Assembly (NCBI RefSeq): GCF_030817535.1
Contig: NZ_JAUSZL010000002.1
Coordinates: 558,001-622,000, forward strand
From: Streptomyces sp. V3I8
GTDB taxonomy: Bacteria > Actinomycetota > Actinomycetes > Streptomycetales > Streptomycetaceae
Direction of reading: 5' to 3'
DNA length: 64,000 nucleotides
Both the position numbers and the translations under genes were made by a program. The notes under the pieces were generated by a model. That model was not told where the DNA came from. It made no database searches and saw nothing but the letters and a program-made list of their open reading frames with translations. How positions within the stretch are numbered: position 1 is the stretch's first letter; each line of letters opens with the position of its first letter. Positions 9,446 through 35,038 of the stretch are shown in pieces.

Positions 9446-10935
<1,490 letters not shown>

Positions 10936-29054: not shown

Positions 29055-29480
29055 TCAGACGCCCGCCGCGGCCGTCACCGTCGCCGGGTCCTCCCCCGTC
29101 AGTTCCGCGACGCGGTGGGGCGGTACGCCCGCGGCCAGTGCCCGGCCGATCAGGCCGTCCCGGCCGTCGGCGCAGTCGCGGTAGTACAGCAGTTCCTTCT
29201 CGATCCGGGCGAGCGCCTCCGGCCCGGACCGCTGCCGCAGGCGGCTCAGCTCCTCGTCGCTCAGCGGCACCGGCAGCCGCTCCGCGCCCTCGGGGACGGC
29301 TCCGGTCTCCTCCGGGGGCAGCAGCCGCAGTTCGGGGGCGGTCGGTGCGGTCCCCTGCGCGTCCAGCCACGCCCGTACCGCGGGAGTCTCCATACAGGCG
29401 AGGTCACCGACGGCGGCCGGGGGCACACCGAGCCGCACGGCGGCGTCGTCGAGCAGGAACAGGTAGGCGTCGTCGGTCAT
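29055..29480 (-). CDS. hypothetical protein with HTH-like C-terminus
   Basis: A 141-aa acidic protein with no family I recognise. The C-terminal segment (I-G-R-A-L-A-A-G-V-P-P-H-R-V-A-E-L-T-G-E-D) resembles the recognition region of small actinobacterial helix-turn-helix proteins, but the last helix lacks the usual basic residues. ATG 29480 is used because it gives a plausible M-T-D-D start and GGAG lies about 13 bases before it. It is divergent from the peptide operon beginning at 29703 and could be its regulator; this is only positional inference. Confidence 0.55.
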   Translation of the reverse strand: MTDDAYLFLLDDAAVRLGVPPAAVGDLACMETPAVRAWLDAQGTAPTAPELRLLPPEETGAVPEGAERLPVPLSDEELSRLRQRSGPEALARIEKELLYYRDCADGRDGLIGRALAAGVPPHRVAELTGEDPATVTAAAGV

Positions 29481-29702
29481 CGTCGGCTCATCTCCACGGG
29501 GGCTGGTCGACACCCCATTACCCCGCCGCACCCGGAATACCGTCGCACGGTCGAGTGAACGCGCGGCACGAGGGCTGGCGCCCCCCGCTTCACGGTCCCG
29601 GAATCGACCGAAGCAGACATATCTGGATTTTCATGAATAGATCATCTCGAAGGGGACACTCGTGGTGGAGAACATCACGTCTCTCGTAAAGGGGATGGTG
29701 GT
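29481..29702. promoter_or_regulatory. divergent region with AT-rich promoter patch of the peptide operon
   Basis: Bases 29615-29650 are strikingly AT-rich for this genome (for example ATATCTGGATTTTCATGAAT), marking the likely operon promoter. A GGGGATGGTGG stretch just before ATG 29703 serves as ribosome site. Confidence 0.4.
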
Positions 29703-29885
29703 ATGTCCACCGAATTCATGTCCGCCGAACTCACCGAGGTCACCGTGGACGTCGAGGCGGCTCTCGACCCGACCGAGGCCGACGGCTCCTACCGTGACAG
29801 CCGCGAGTGCGCGGCGCTGGCACTGCAGGCCGGAACGAACCAGCTGCTGCTGTCCCCGCCCACCCCCCGGCCGAAGAAGGGTTGA
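29703..29885 (+). CDS. 60-residue acidic peptide, candidate precursor peptide
   Basis: A small protein with ten acidic residues in the first 35 positions, a single cysteine at 36, an A-L-A-L-Q-A-G-T-N-Q-L-L-L hydrophobic run, and the C-terminal S-P-P-T-P-R-P-K-K-G. An acidic leader-like half followed by a short distinct C-terminal part is the usual look of a ribosomally made, modified peptide (RiPP) precursor. Codon use is strongly GC-biased, supporting real coding. It ends 13 bases before the ATG of the 240-aa gene. It matches no RiPP class that I can name. Alternatives are a small regulatory or carrier peptide. Confidence 0.65.
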   Translation: MSTEFMSAELTEVTVDVEAALDPTEADGSYRDSRECAALALQAGTNQLLLSPPTPRPKKG

Positions 29886-29898
29886 CGGGAGAAGCCAC

Positions 29899-30621
29899 AT
29901 GGAGCAGTCAGGCACTTCGACCCGTCTGACGGGCGCGGTGCAGGACCTCACCTCGGAACTGGTCTCCGCTCTTCGGAGCGGGGGCCCGTTCCGGTTGACC
30001 GGCAGCGTCCCCGGGGCCGACGGCCCCGGGGCGGCCGACGGAATCACCCTCGCCGCCGTACGCGTGGTGGGGGCCGACGCCGTTCTGCCGAGCGTCCTGC
30101 GCCACACCCCTGCCGAACCCGACGACCTCGCCGTGTTCGGCAGGGCCGTGCACGCCTACCCGCCCCCCGCGAACGCCTCCCCCGCCTCGGTGTGGAGCCA
30201 CTGGGCCATGGAACGCACCCTGCTGGCACTGGAGGGGTCCGTCGACGGGGCCTCGAACGGCATGCCGGGCAACGGCTCGCAACCCCGGGCCGGGTGGCTC
30301 GAGGGTGCCTCCTGGCAGTCGCTGACCCATCAGCTCGCCGTGCTGGCCCCGCTGGCGGTGCCCGCCGCGGACTGCGCAGTGACACGGGTGGCCCGTAGCC
30401 GCCCGGTCGACGTGGCCCGGGGATTCGTCCGCGCGGTCCGTCGGCGCGACTGGCTGCAGGCGGCGGGCGCGGGGCGCTGGCTGGTGCTCCTGGACGGGGT
30501 CCCGGAGACGCTCGGCCTGGCGGCCGGGCTCGAGTTCGTGGCGCAGATGGGCCGCGACGATCCACGCGTGGCACTGCAGGTCGAGGCGGCGCGGCTGATG
30601 CGGGCCGGAGTGCGGGTGTGA
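29899..30621 (+). CDS. hypothetical protein of peptide operon
   Basis: A 240-aa soluble protein I do not recognise. It has an N-terminal helical segment (A-V-Q-D-L-T-S-E-L-V-S-A-L-R-S), a W-S-H-W-A-M-E-R-T-L-L-A-L-E segment near 100, and a helix-rich C-terminal half (R-G-F-V-R-A-V-R-R-R-D-W-L-Q-A-A-G, F-V-A-Q-M-G-R-D-D-P-R). No metal motif, membrane helix or signal peptide is visible. GGGAGAAG precedes ATG 29899. Its stop overlaps the next start (GTGTGA), so it is made together with the two DUF6895-like proteins and could be a peptide-binding or scaffold partner. Confidence 0.7.
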   Translation: MEQSGTSTRLTGAVQDLTSELVSALRSGGPFRLTGSVPGADGPGAADGITLAAVRVVGADAVLPSVLRHTPAEPDDLAVFGRAVHAYPPPANASPASVWSHWAMERTLLALEGSVDGASNGMPGNGSQPRAGWLEGASWQSLTHQLAVLAPLAVPAADCAVTRVARSRPVDVARGFVRAVRRRDWLQAAGAGRWLVLLDGVPETLGLAAGLEFVAQMGRDDPRVALQVEAARLMRAGVRV

Positions 30622-31613
30622 GGGCGCGCGACGTCCACGGGCTCGGCGAGGCCGCCCTGGCCTGGGTGTCCGCCCACCGGGACGAGTTCGCGCTCGGTGA
30701 CGACGCACTCGCCGAACACGCGAACGTGAACCTCACCTGGAAGCCCCTGGGCGAACTGGCGCAGGTCTGCGTCAGCATCCGCCGGCACACCGAACCGGCC
30801 GACCCACTGCACCGGGCCGCCTCCGATCTGCTGGCCTTCGCCTGGCGGCAGACCGGCCACGGCGGCCTGTTCCTCGAACTGCAGCGCCTCGAACCCTTCG
30901 CGACGTACCCCCTGGAGATCTACGCGGCGTTCGCGTCCGACGGGCTGCGCCACCCCGAGTACGAGCGGGCGACCGCGACGGTGGCCCGCACCCGCGGCTG
31001 GCGGCTGACGGAGCAGCAGCCCAACCGGCGCCTGAGCGTCCTCAACTCCGAGCAGCGCAGCGGCATCCCGCAGCACGACGCCATGCCGCGGGCGCTGCTC
31101 CGCACCTGGCTGGGCGGTCTGCCGGAACCGTGGACGTTCGAGCTCGCCGCCGGTTACACCCTCACCCACGTGGTCTTCCACCTCACCGACTGGGGCCTGA
31201 CCCCGCGGGGCGTCCCCCCGCAGGTCGCCGACTACCTCGGGCAGTGGCTCCCGCCCTGGCTCGACACCTGCCTGGAGGACGAGCAGTGGGACCTGGGCTG
31301 CGAGCTGCTGGCCGTGGCGGGCAGCCTGCCCGGCCCGCCGGACCGCGCGGTGCTCGAAGAGTCCTGGACGAGGCTCGCGCGGGCCCAGGACGCCTCCGGG
31401 GCCGTTCCGGAGGTCGGCGCCGGACGGGACGGGCACCCGGTCGCCCACGACTTCGTCGGCTGCTACCACTCGACCCTGATGACGGCCTTCGCCGCCGTAC
31501 TGACCACCTACCGCCTGCGCGCGTACGTCGACGACGGCGCGGCGGCGGGAAAGACACTCGTCCTCGAGCACGCGGCGCGGCCGGGGCAGGGCGGCCGAGG
31601 AGGGCCGAGATGA
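30618..31613 (+). CDS. DUF6895-like protein, paralogue A
   Basis: A 331-aa helical protein. Shared with the next gene: A-L-x-W-x-x-A-H-R-D-E-F (13-24), K-P-L-G-E-L-A (42-48), R-T-W-L-G (162-166), E-P-W-T (170-173), the signature T-H-V-V-F-H-L-T-D-W-G (H184, H188, D191) and Y-H-S-T-L (283-287). A-R-A-Q-D-A-S-G-A near 254-262 looks like a QW-type repeat of alpha/alpha-toroid proteins. The conserved H-x3-H-x2-D plus the later histidine could bind a metal or form an active site. No function is known. The start GTG overlaps the preceding stop, and the stop overlaps paralogue B (ATGA). Confidence 0.75.
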   Translation: MRARDVHGLGEAALAWVSAHRDEFALGDDALAEHANVNLTWKPLGELAQVCVSIRRHTEPADPLHRAASDLLAFAWRQTGHGGLFLELQRLEPFATYPLEIYAAFASDGLRHPEYERATATVARTRGWRLTEQQPNRRLSVLNSEQRSGIPQHDAMPRALLRTWLGGLPEPWTFELAAGYTLTHVVFHLTDWGLTPRGVPPQVADYLGQWLPPWLDTCLEDEQWDLGCELLAVAGSLPGPPDRAVLEESWTRLARAQDASGAVPEVGAGRDGHPVAHDFVGCYHSTLMTAFAAVLTTYRLRAYVDDGAAAGKTLVLEHAARPGQGGRGGPR

Positions 31614-32530
31614 CCAGTACCCGTCTCATCCACACCGTCGGCACCGGCGCCCTGGAGTGGCTGCACGCCCACCGCGACGAGTTCCGCCTGGAGCAGGACG
31701 TCGACCCGGAAGTGGGCTTCCTGGAGCGCTTCAAGCCGGTCGGTGAACTGGCCGTCATCTGCAAGGTGCTGTTCCGCGAAGGCGTGTCGGGCTCCCGGCA
31801 GACCGAGCTGGCACGGCAGTTGCTGGACCACGCCTGGCGGGACACGCTGGACGGCGGCCGGATGCTGGTGCGCGGCCAGCGCATCGAGCCCCTCTCCCCC
31901 ATTCCCTTCGAGGTCTACCTGCCGTTCAAGGAACTCGGCTACAGCAACCCCGAGGCCGAGCAGGCCTTCCGGCTCAACCAGCGGCTGGAGAGCTTCGCCG
32001 CCCACGAGCTGCCGCCGGTGCGACGCCTGGGCCTGTCGGCCTTCCAACGCCGTTTCGGACTGCAGCCGCGGCCGCCCGAGGCCGAGATCGTCGGCAGGAC
32101 CTGGCTCGGACGCACCCCCGAGCCGTGGACGGTGGAGGGCCACACCGCCTACGACATCACGCACACCGTCTTCCACCTCACCGACTGGGGGGAGAACCCC
32201 GACGGCCTGCCGGCCCCCCTCGCCGACTACCTCGCCACCTGGCTGCCGGCCTGGCTGGACGACTGGCTCGACCTGCAGCGCTGGGACCTGCTCGGCGAAC
32301 TGCTCGTCGTCGACGCCTGTCTGCCGCGTCCCACCCTGGACGAGCGGGCCTGGGAGGGGTTCGCCGCCGCCCAGCAGCCCGACGGGGCGATGCCCGCCGT
32401 ACGCACGATGCCCCGGGGCGAGCGCGACGAGCTGTTCGACCTCGTCTACCACCCGACCCTGGTCGCCGCCTTCGCCTCGGTACTGGCCACGTCCCGCGCC
32501 CTGACGCAGCTGGCGCACGCACCCGCATGA
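31610..32530 (+). CDS. DUF6895-like protein, paralogue B
   Basis: A 306-aa paralogue of the preceding protein with the same order of landmarks: A-L-E-W-L-H-A-H-R-D-E-F (14-25), K-P-V-G-E-L-A (42-48), R-T-W-L-G (163-167), T-H-T-V-F-H-L-T-D-W-G (H185, H189, D192), and Y-H-P-T-L (280-284). A-A-A-Q-Q-P-D-G-A-M-P near 252-262 is a better QW-like motif. The two proteins differ mainly in the middle third, so a heterodimer or two successive steps on one substrate are both possible. ATGA overlaps join it to both neighbours. Confidence 0.75.
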   Translation: MTSTRLIHTVGTGALEWLHAHRDEFRLEQDVDPEVGFLERFKPVGELAVICKVLFREGVSGSRQTELARQLLDHAWRDTLDGGRMLVRGQRIEPLSPIPFEVYLPFKELGYSNPEAEQAFRLNQRLESFAAHELPPVRRLGLSAFQRRFGLQPRPPEAEIVGRTWLGRTPEPWTVEGHTAYDITHTVFHLTDWGENPDGLPAPLADYLATWLPAWLDDWLDLQRWDLLGELLVVDACLPRPTLDERAWEGFAAAQQPDGAMPAVRTMPRGERDELFDLVYHPTLVAAFASVLATSRALTQLAHAPA

Positions 32531-33621
32531 CTCCCCGTACCCAGCCCTGGCCGGGCGATCCGTTCGGCGCCACCGGCCGGCTCCCGCTCCGGCGCCCGAC
32601 CACGGCGGCACGTGCGGACGGCGCGGCGGTGCAACAGCGGCTCGACGACGCCGTCGGCGGCCTGGACGCGCCCGACGTCGTCTTCGCCCTCTCCCGCGAC
32701 GGTCACCGCACCGTGCGCAGCGGCGGCACCGGCCCGCCCCCGCCCGTCCCCCGCGACCGGCTGCGCTACGAGATCGGCTCGGCCTCCAAGACGTTCACCG
32801 GGCTGCTCCTGGCCCAGCTGACGCAGTCGGGCGTGCTGTCCGCGGGCGAGCCCGCCGTGACCTGCCTGGACCCGTCCCGGCCGGCCGGCCGGGACCCCGT
32901 CACCCTCGCGCACCTGATCACCCACACGTCCGGGCTGCCCGCCCTGCCCGCCGACTTCTTCCCGCGCGCCCTGCCCACGTGGCACACCAACCCCTATGCC
33001 GGGTATCCGGACCAGCGGGTGGTCGACGCCTTCCTGCGCCGCCGGCAGCCCCGGCGGCCCGGCACCCGCTGGCGCTACTCCAACTTCGGTGTCGCCGTGC
33101 TCGGTCAGGCCCTCGCCGCCGCCACCGCGACGCGCTGGGACGACCTGCTCACCACGCAGGTGCTGCTGCCCCTGGAACTGCGCGGCACCGCCCTCGGACC
33201 CGCCGGACCGGACACCGACGCCGTCGGGCACCGCAGGGACGGTGCGACGCCCACGCCCCCGCTGACCGTCGGCGGGTTCCGGCCGGCCGGCGCCGTCCGG
33301 GCCACCCCGCACGACCTGCTGACCTTCCTCGAAGCCCACCTGGAACCGGCGGGCCGGCCCCTGGCCGGTGCGCTGCGGGCGGTACGCCGTCCCGTCCTGC
33401 GACGCGGTCACGGGCACCGGCACGTGCACACGGTGGGCTGGTTCCAGCACCCCACCGGGCACGGCCCCATGTACTTCCACTGCGGGGCCACCCTCGGCCA
33501 GCAGGCCTTCCTGGGGTTCAGGCCCGACACCGGAACGGCGCTGGCCGCCGTGTCCACCCGCCGCTTCCGCGTCCGCGACACCTTCGTGGCGACGGCGTAC
33601 GCGCTCCTCGCCGAGGCGTGA
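32527..33621 (+). CDS. serine hydrolase, beta-lactamase class C/DD-peptidase fold
   Basis: A 364-aa enzyme with the three motifs of the family: S-A-S-K at residues 85-88 (nucleophile serine and lysine), Y-S-N in W-R-Y-S-N-F-G, and H-C-G in F-H-C-G-A-T-L-G near the C-terminus. There is no signal peptide, so it acts in the cytoplasm, unlike true beta-lactamases or penicillin-binding proteins. Such intracellular members act as esterases, transacylases or peptidases. Being the last gene of the peptide operon (ATGA overlap), it could trim or acylate the peptide product. Confidence 0.9.
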   Translation: MTPRTQPWPGDPFGATGRLPLRRPTTAARADGAAVQQRLDDAVGGLDAPDVVFALSRDGHRTVRSGGTGPPPPVPRDRLRYEIGSASKTFTGLLLAQLTQSGVLSAGEPAVTCLDPSRPAGRDPVTLAHLITHTSGLPALPADFFPRALPTWHTNPYAGYPDQRVVDAFLRRRQPRRPGTRWRYSNFGVAVLGQALAAATATRWDDLLTTQVLLPLELRGTALGPAGPDTDAVGHRRDGATPTPPLTVGGFRPAGAVRATPHDLLTFLEAHLEPAGRPLAGALRAVRRPVLRRGHGHRHVHTVGWFQHPTGHGPMYFHCGATLGQQAFLGFRPDTGTALAAVSTRRFRVRDTFVATAYALLAEA

Positions 33622-33679: not shown

Positions 33680-35038
33680 TCAGACGCGCCGCCACAGGGC
33701 CGGCGTGAGGGCGGGCTGCCAGACACCCTGCGCCTGGTGCGTCTGCAGGCACTCGTAGGTGACGTCGTCGTAGGTCACCCGTACGCCGGTCCCGTAGACC
33801 CTGCCCGCGCTCCAGCTGCCCGAGTGGCCGTCCTGCGCGCCGGGGGTGCCGCCCGCGACGGTCTTCAGCGTGAGCCCGTACTCCGTGAGCAGCGGGTTGA
33901 CCGGCTGGTGGAAGGTGATGCCGCCTTTCGTGCAGTCGCCGCTGCCCCCGGAGGTGACGCCCTGGGCCTGGGTGCCGGAGATGTAGGAGCCGCCGGAGTC
34001 GCCGGGCTCCGCGCACACCGTCGTACGCGTCACCCCGGCGACGGCGCCCTCGGCGTACTCGACGGTGGTGCCGTGCTGCTCGATCGTTCCGCAGTGCCAG
34101 CCGGTGGTGGAGCCCGACCGGCAGATCGCCGCGCCCACCAGTGCCTCCACCGAACCGGCGACCTGCACGTTCGTCTCGCCCTCGCCCTTGACGGCGGGCG
34201 TGGCGGTCCACTCGCTGTTGACGCTCACCCAGGACATGTCCTTGCCCGGGAAGACCGACGCCTCGAAGGTGCCCTGGGCGACCTTGTTGAAGCCGGTCGT
34301 CTTCGCGCCCGCCTTCCCGCAGTGTCCGGCGCTGGCGAAACCCTGCTTGTCGTCCTTGGTCACGGAGAACCCCACCGAACAGCGGGCCTTCTCGTCGATG
34401 TAGTACGCGTCGCCGCCGCGGACGTCGTGCAGCGCGCGGGGCCGGTCCGCCGACACCCTGACCTCCACGAGCCGGCGGTCGATCCCGGCCGCGGTCACGA
34501 GCCTGTCGGCGGCCGCGTCGCTGGTCGCCTGCACCGTCACCCGGTTGGTCCGCACGTCGACGTACCGGACCGGTGTGTCGAGGGAGCCGCCCACCGCGGC
34601 GGCGTCCAGTTTCGCCTTGGCGGCGGTCAGGTCCTCCAGGGTGTTCCCGACGACCTTCGCCCGCGCCCCGCCGGCCTTGATGGCGGCGACCCCGGCGGCA
34701 TCCGTGGTGGCGATGGTCAGGTCGGCGGAGGTCGTGCCCTGGACCCAGGCACCCGCGAAGTGCTTGCCCAGCGTGTTCTGGATGCGGCCGGCGCGCGTGC
34801 CCGCCTCCGCCTCGTTCACCAGCCGCGCCCTGGCCTGCGGACCTGTCAGCCGCAGATCGCGCTGGAGCGCGCGCAGGAGGGCCGCCGACGGCCTGTCGGC
34901 ACCGAGCGTCTGCGCGGCGGAGGCGGGCGCCGGCGCGGGGGGTTCGACGGCCGCGGCCGCGGGCAGCCCGGTGAGCACGAGTGCGCCGAGCGCGGTCAGG
35001 GCGGTCCGGGCGGCTCCGTCGGCGTGTCTGTGGACCAT
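33680..35038 (-). CDS. secreted streptogrisin-type S1 serine protease with chitin-binding domain
   Basis: A 452-aa preproprotein. It has a signal peptide (T-A-L-T-A-L-G-A-L-V-L-T-G-L-P-A-A-A-A), an alpha-lytic-protease-type propeptide (about 45-190), then the S1 domain with H in A-S-A-G-H-C-G, D in G-K-D-M-S-W-V and S in E-P-G-D-S-G-G-S. A short linker and a carbohydrate-binding module (about 405-452, W-S-A-G-R-V-Y, Y-E-C-L-Q-T-H) of the CBM5/12 chitin-binding type complete it, as in streptogrisin C. AGGAG seven bases before ATG 35038 supports the start. It is likely to target proteins bound to chitin or fungal walls. Confidence 0.93.
   Translation of the reverse strand: MVHRHADGAARTALTALGALVLTGLPAAAAVEPPAPAPASAAQTLGADRPSAALLRALQRDLRLTGPQARARLVNEAEAGTRAGRIQNTLGKHFAGAWVQGTTSADLTIATTDAAGVAAIKAGGARAKVVGNTLEDLTAAKAKLDAAAVGGSLDTPVRYVDVRTNRVTVQATSDAAADRLVTAAGIDRRLVEVRVSADRPRALHDVRGGDAYYIDEKARCSVGFSVTKDDKQGFASAGHCGKAGAKTTGFNKVAQGTFEASVFPGKDMSWVSVNSEWTATPAVKGEGETNVQVAGSVEALVGAAICRSGSTTGWHCGTIEQHGTTVEYAEGAVAGVTRTTVCAEPGDSGGSYISGTQAQGVTSGGSGDCTKGGITFHQPVNPLLTEYGLTLKTVAGGTPGAQDGHSGSWSAGRVYGTGVRVTYDDVTYECLQTHQAQGVWQPALTPALWRRV

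Follow-up and report, generated by a model that had tools for sequence, protein, structure and literature searches.

A conserved five-gene Streptomyces operon encoding a small peptide, two DUF6895 proteins and a serine hydrolase: a candidate peptide-modification cassette

Introduction

What might a bacterium produce with an operon that begins with a peptide of 60 amino acids and encodes no familiar peptide-tailoring enzyme? This question is raised by five genes of Streptomyces sp. V3I8 (contig NZ_JAUSZL010000002.1) that lie in a stretch of 64,000 nucleotides, here called the window (positions 558001-622000 of the contig, in a 9.3-Mb genome). We refer to these genes as A (the small peptide), B (a protein of 240 amino acids), C and D (two DUF6895 proteins) and E (a serine hydrolase). 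The first-pass annotation, made from the sequence alone, had described five genes on one strand, the last four joined by 4-nucleotide overlaps, and had suggested either a new class of peptide modification or a small-molecule system. The gene coordinates were reproduced exactly, with all five genes on the forward strand (Table 1). Our results favor the peptide branch of that suggestion, and nothing was found for the small-molecule branch. We give about an even chance to the reading that the operon is a cassette for a ribosomally synthesized and post-translationally modified peptide (RiPP), in which the DUF6895 proteins would act as epimerases and E would act afterwards.

Results

Conservation of the operon

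A is separated from B by 13 nucleotides, and the B/C, C/D and D/E junctions each overlap by 4 nucleotides. We compared the operon with 80 named Streptomyces loci, which were the best 80 of 397 and are for that reason biased toward near relatives with the gene order of the window (type I). The full A-B-C-D-E set was present in 77 of the 80, and the other three run off contig ends; the co-encoding of a precursor with its proposed modifying enzymes, which characterizes RiPP systems, is thus seen in the 77 complete loci. At loci where the gene caller found both genes, the 4-nucleotide overlap recurred in 48 of 52 B/C, 72 of 73 C/D and 64 of 72 D/E junctions.

Among 150 evenly sampled genomes of the genus, A was detected in 47, B in 66 and DUF6895 in 73 (72 above the cut-off). 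Comparison of the lists by eye placed all 47 genomes with A and all 66 with B among those with DUF6895, and in 47 of 47 genomes with A the match ended no more than about 60 bases upstream of the B match (coordinates also compared by eye). Because of this adjacency, together with the strong purifying selection on A described below, the association goes beyond chance. DUF6895 was found in 217 of 394 genomes of the wider family (11 of 17 genera) and in 6 of 296 genomes of a phylum sample, five of them above the cut-off and all five from the genus of the window.

Among 26 type-I loci that were inspected together with their surroundings (the window, L091-L099 and L115-L130), the A/B and DUF6895 clusters were found throughout, and E was present in 25, all but the short contig L099. 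Neighborhoods varied, with the most frequent flanking gene cluster occurring in 10 of the 26. The five genes are a conserved unit, a compact cassette found in differing neighborhoods, and we regard it as close to certain both that they form one genetic unit and that A is a peptide.

Peptide A is a constrained gene product

A was still called as a gene by a codon model that had been trained on B to E and other genes of the window, with A excluded. A database search returned 295 matches to A at an E-value of up to 1, and none was obtained in Pfam, NCBIfam or PHROGs at the same threshold. The peptide comprises an acidic part (residues 1-35, net charge -8), a cysteine (C36), a variable hexapeptide (residues 42-47) and a near-invariant basic, proline-rich tail, LLLSPPTPRPKKG (residues 48-60). 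The ratio of nonsynonymous to synonymous polymorphism (pN/pS), estimated from 223 close pairs that share ancestry and are not independent, was 0.72 for residues 2-15, 0.10 for residues 16-41, 0.41 for residues 42-47 and 0.04 for residues 48-60. The tail was identical in 68 of the 80 A sequences, the hexapeptide had 44 variants with many G, S and T residues, and C36 was present in 99% of the 80 type-I precursors. The first-pass annotation had made conservation and translation of the 60-mer a condition of the precursor idea, and the outcome favors that idea: A is a gene-encoded, translated and constrained peptide, present in 47 of 150 genomes and with pN/pS values of 0.04 to 0.10 in its conserved parts.

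The earlier division of A into an acidic leader and a distinct core held for the acidic head; the C-terminus, rather than forming a variable core, is the most conserved part of the peptide. The comparison of leader and core conservation that had been called for instead located the variable piece inside a conserved region, at residues 42-47, followed by the invariant tail. An initial excess of nonsynonymous over synonymous substitution in this hexapeptide, calculated against the window sequence alone and seen also in the N-terminal part, proved saturated. Given the close-pair ratio of 0.41, the hexapeptide is less constrained than the segments on either side of it, and positive selection is unsupported. 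A ubiquitin-like tag ending in -KKG was rejected, given that the C-terminus of some type-I relatives is PKTDVR, PKKESR or a similar sequence. Tandem matches to A, two at each locus, were found at L115 and L205.

DUF6895 proteins C and D and protein B

The two DUF6895-like paralogues of the first-pass annotation both matched PF21836, with E-values of 2.7e-87 for C and 1.7e-85 for D and bit scores of 293.2 and 287.4 vs a curated cut-off of 23.8. They are 42% identical over the matched stretch, and a search of this genome with D at an E-value of up to 1 returned these two proteins alone. The structure model of D is a confident alpha/alpha toroid (predicted local distance difference test score of 92.4), a fold common to sugar 2-epimerases among many others. 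The family had been treated as one of unknown function, a view that is now out of date, given that one DUF6895 member is named a lasso-peptide epimerase in the title of a recent paper (Shi et al. 2026, ACS Catal.). By analogy, we propose that C and D are peptide epimerases.

B, searched in the same three family libraries and at the same threshold as A, likewise gave no match. Its predicted structure is helical, without strands, and an Arg-rich segment (R174-R183 and R193) is invariant in 100 type-I homologues; on the basis of this segment we propose that B docks the precursor. RiPP recognition elements (RREs) contain strands. The lack of a strand in the model and of a family match argues against B being an RRE, with a divergent RRE still conceivable. 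A third DUF6895 copy was also considered for B and was rejected (hhalign probability of 0.5%).

DUF6895 genes accompany several kinds of peptide cluster

We inspected 61 loci, namely the window and L071-L130. Two of these, L110 and L112, had been fetched as weak matches and have no DUF6895 open reading frame (ORF), leaving 59 loci that do. Irregular loci were kept in their groups (A in frame into B at L094, D in pieces at L123, B in two pieces at L078 and a short E at L092). In addition to the 26 type-I loci, 19 belonged to a second type in which a different small precursor is followed by a B-like gene (B'), one DUF6895 gene and E. The type-II precursor, whose tail in most loci resembles SPKEPKEPK, was found in 17 of the 19, the misses being L088, which runs off a contig end, and L071. 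At L071, upstream of position 10437 on the reverse strand and just before B', a start codon and a few codons resemble the start of a type-II precursor.

The type-I and type-II small ORFs hardly resemble each other in sequence, and their profiles aligned weakly (probability of 68%, E-value of 4.7e-5); both keep an acidic head, a hydrophobic middle and an SPxxP-like tail. Among aligned precursors chosen as representatives, the part before the tail was net acidic in 14 of 14 type-I and 12 of 12 type-II sequences, and the tails of the same 26 were net basic in 24 and neutral in two.

Seven loci (L101-L107) showed a third arrangement, with a very acidic peptide ORF of 38-42 amino acids and two DUF6895 genes, and are a candidate for another RiPP family using DUF6895. 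Their representative L105 (6657-14986) also encodes a radical S-adenosylmethionine (SAM) protein, a major facilitator superfamily protein, a prolyl oligopeptidase and a weak glycosyltransferase-like match. L109 carries a lasso-type cluster (a 39-amino-acid ORF, a transglutaminase-like protein and Asn synthase) with DUF6895, and L113 (8193-16306) a lanthipeptide-type cluster of LanB, LanC and ATP-binding cassette proteins with a DUF6895 protein of 416 amino acids; L114 was assigned to the same kind of locus as L113 by clustering. L090, L100 and L111 each contain a DUF6895-cluster ORF of 544-593 amino acids beside a conserved ORF of 65-72 amino acids unlike the other precursors; the domain was mapped to residues 3-287 in L090, and L100 and L111 were assigned by clustering. 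At L108 (7232-9563), an ORF of 84 amino acids with two adjacent cysteines precedes a divergent DUF6895 protein and a PNPOx-family protein, possibly a further peptide type.

In view of these lasso-type, LanB/LanC, radical-SAM and type-II contexts, DUF6895 is associated with several classes of RiPP machinery. The first-pass annotation had held that wide occurrence of the paralogues without any small ORF would speak against a precursor; a small ORF adjoins DUF6895 in 55 of the 59 loci, and the four exceptions are L071 (none found), L088 (contig end) and L113 and L114 (small ORF not searched for).

Hydrolase E

E matched PF00144 (E-value of 6.4e-49; 167.3 bits vs a cut-off of 27) with the motifs SxxK (S85/K88), YxN (Y184/N186) and HxG (H318/G320). 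An alignment of 21 E proteins drawn from types I and II showed no variation in these three catalytic motifs, the third being HxG throughout. Inspection by eye showed an N-terminus that is not signal-like, in agreement with the cytosolic SxxK hydrolase described previously. In the 25 NCBIfam matches listed, of 43, E was far below the cut-off each time; the best was 58.1 of 415 bits, for the class C beta-lactamase equivalog NF033085.

A single-sequence search of the Protein Data Bank (PDB) with E returned D-amino acid amidase, alkaline D-peptidase, ClbP and DD-peptidase among its relatives. D-Amino acid amidase, ClbP and DD-peptidase act at D-residues, and we take E to share a superfamily with the thioesterase SurE. 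Alkaline D-peptidase, a class-C-type penicillin-binding protein (PBP) that cleaves peptides D-stereospecifically (PMC4570186; PDB 4y7p), is only weakly similar in sequence to E (E-value of 1.7e-9), which differs in being a cytosolic protein encoded within a peptide operon. The PBP-type thioesterase SurE is a ring-closing enzyme that depends on a C-terminal D-residue (PMC11735501); its substrates are nonribosomal, whereas E would act on a ribosomal peptide and cyclization by E is hypothetical. By analogy with these enzymes, we propose that E acts as a hydrolase or cyclase at a D-residue. No hydrolase other than E was recognized in the unit shared by types I and II, which makes E the natural candidate for product release; other peptidase-like proteins come with the lasso-type cluster and with L105.

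Discussion

A possible route to a D-residue-containing product

From these comparisons we infer how docking, epimerization and hydrolysis might yield a product. A would be the precursor, in which the acidic N-terminal part and the fixed SPPTPRPKKG tail serve as recognition elements and the core between them includes the variable hexapeptide. B, through its invariant Arg-rich segment, would help to dock the acidic leader in place of the usual RRE. C and D, as alpha/alpha-toroid DUF6895 proteins, would epimerize one or more core residues to the D form, and E, as a cytosolic S12-family enzyme, would then act at the D-residue and free the product from leader or tail, possibly with ring closure. 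In its strongest form, the scheme would be a ribosomal parallel to the way in which nonribosomal systems use D-residues, with chirality as the processing code: DUF6895 epimerases would place a D-residue in the precursor, marking the position at which a cytosolic S12 hydrolase would cut or close a ring. We offer this form tentatively and consider it rather doubtful. With similar reserve, we suggest that such a code could define a separate RiPP class, widespread in Streptomyces and with at least two precursor families.

A Pfam scan of the five proteins revealed no known RiPP tailoring enzyme, whether lasso, lanthipeptide or other, as had been noted at first pass. The marks of a lasso system (an Asn-synthase-like cyclase and a leader peptidase) were absent from the operon, as were those of a lanthipeptide system (LanB/LanC, LanM or a similar synthetase). 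MslH, the epimerase of the lasso peptide MS-271, probably has a fold other than that of DUF6895 proteins. Like the role proposed for C and D, its activity is that of a peptide C-alpha epimerase on a ribosomal precursor; unlike them, it is metal-dependent according to the title of its report. The lasso epimerase named in the title of Shi et al. (2026) shares its named domain family with C and D, and the relative L109 holds a lasso-type cluster with DUF6895; the present operon differs in having no lasso cyclase or leader-peptidase family, two DUF6895 copies, a precursor with a conserved tail and a PF00144 hydrolase. The candidate Streptomyces RiPP families of decRiPPter (PMC7794033) likewise combine a small ORF with new enzymes. 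The literature searched gave no account of this operon, nor did the main-text parts of the decRiPPter paper, where a word-start search returned 0 occurrences of lactamase, hydrolase and epimerase; the supplements, including the tables of the 42 families, were outside that search.

Several observations weigh against a DUF6895-epimerase cassette. The epimerase role comes from a title and from one member of the family, an enzyme that may differ from C and D. A Foldseek search with the D model gave no match with an E-value of <0.001, and terpene cyclases and glycosidases reached the same Z as epimerases for the toroid. A profile search of the PDB with E (profile A6) placed class C beta-lactamases first, and for this reason its D-specificity is left unsettled by sequence. 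The Pfam scan matched no exporter or RRE family in the operon. About two thirds of the genus sample (103 of 150) lack A; type-II locus L071 holds B', DUF6895 and E with no precursor found; and E of type-I locus L092 is short (225 amino acids). Finally, antibiotic cores do not usually combine a near-fixed tail with a variable stretch of six residues. Such extreme conservation of the tail may hint at a shared cellular role rather than at a fast-evolving antibiotic.

Alternative explanations

The same toroid and profile matches would also suit a RiPP-type system in which DUF6895 performs other chemistry, such as terpene-cyclase-like cyclization, and E serves as a conventional leader peptidase that does not select for D-residues, with C36 as a candidate site of modification. 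We think this unlikely: epimerase is the only reported DUF6895 function that we found, as stated in a title, and C36 has no counterpart in 12 aligned type-II precursors despite the same enzyme family.

A could also function unprocessed, as a small protein with a structural or regulatory role, while B to E act on something else. Most RiPP cores lack near-invariance of the kind seen in the tail of A, which counts for an intact protein, as does the operon without an exporter match. The small ORFs of types I and II have diverged, yet they retain the head, middle and SPxxP-like tail; other small ORFs accompany DUF6895 in lasso-type and radical-SAM clusters; and A occurs in tandem copies. We therefore judge an intact role for A to be distinctly improbable.

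A small-molecule, resistance or defense system with E as a beta-lactamase, to which the inclusion of beta-lactamases in PF00144 and the leading class C profile matches might point, is very improbable, given the low NCBIfam scores of E, its HxG third motif, the absence of any further gene common to more than 10 of the 26 loci, and the finding of no PADLOC match for the five proteins at an E-value of up to 0.01, on which an anti-phage system was also rejected.

The operon represents a compact, five-gene and widely distributed candidate RiPP family, and DUF6895 is suggested to be a tailoring enzyme common to lasso-type, lanthipeptide-type, radical-SAM and the present clusters. If a D-residue is indeed the site of action of an S12 enzyme, a link would emerge between ribosomal peptides and the chemistry by which nonribosomal peptides are closed into rings, and new enzymes for peptides that are cyclic or contain D-residues would become available.

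Gene coordinates and neighboring genes

Table 1. Genes of the operon and its immediate neighbors (positions within the window).
Gene	Position	Strand	Product
A	29703-29885	+	60 amino acids; proposed precursor peptide
B	29899-30621	+	240 amino acids; no family match
C	30618-31613	+	331 amino acids, GTG start; DUF6895 (PF21836), first copy
D	31610-32530	+	306 amino acids; DUF6895 (PF21836), second copy
E	32527-33621	+	364 amino acids; cytosolic PF00144 serine hydrolase
Downstream neighbor	33680-35038	-	Secreted S1-type protease (by eye)
Upstream neighbor	29055-29489	-	DUF6003 protein (PF19466, E-value of 1.3e-69)

The protease-like gene follows the operon on the opposite strand, and its cluster also lies close to the operon in 9 of the other 25 type-I loci, probably by shared descent. 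The DUF6003 gene lies directly upstream in divergent orientation, and its cluster occurs near the operon in 3 of the 26 type-I loci, the window included.
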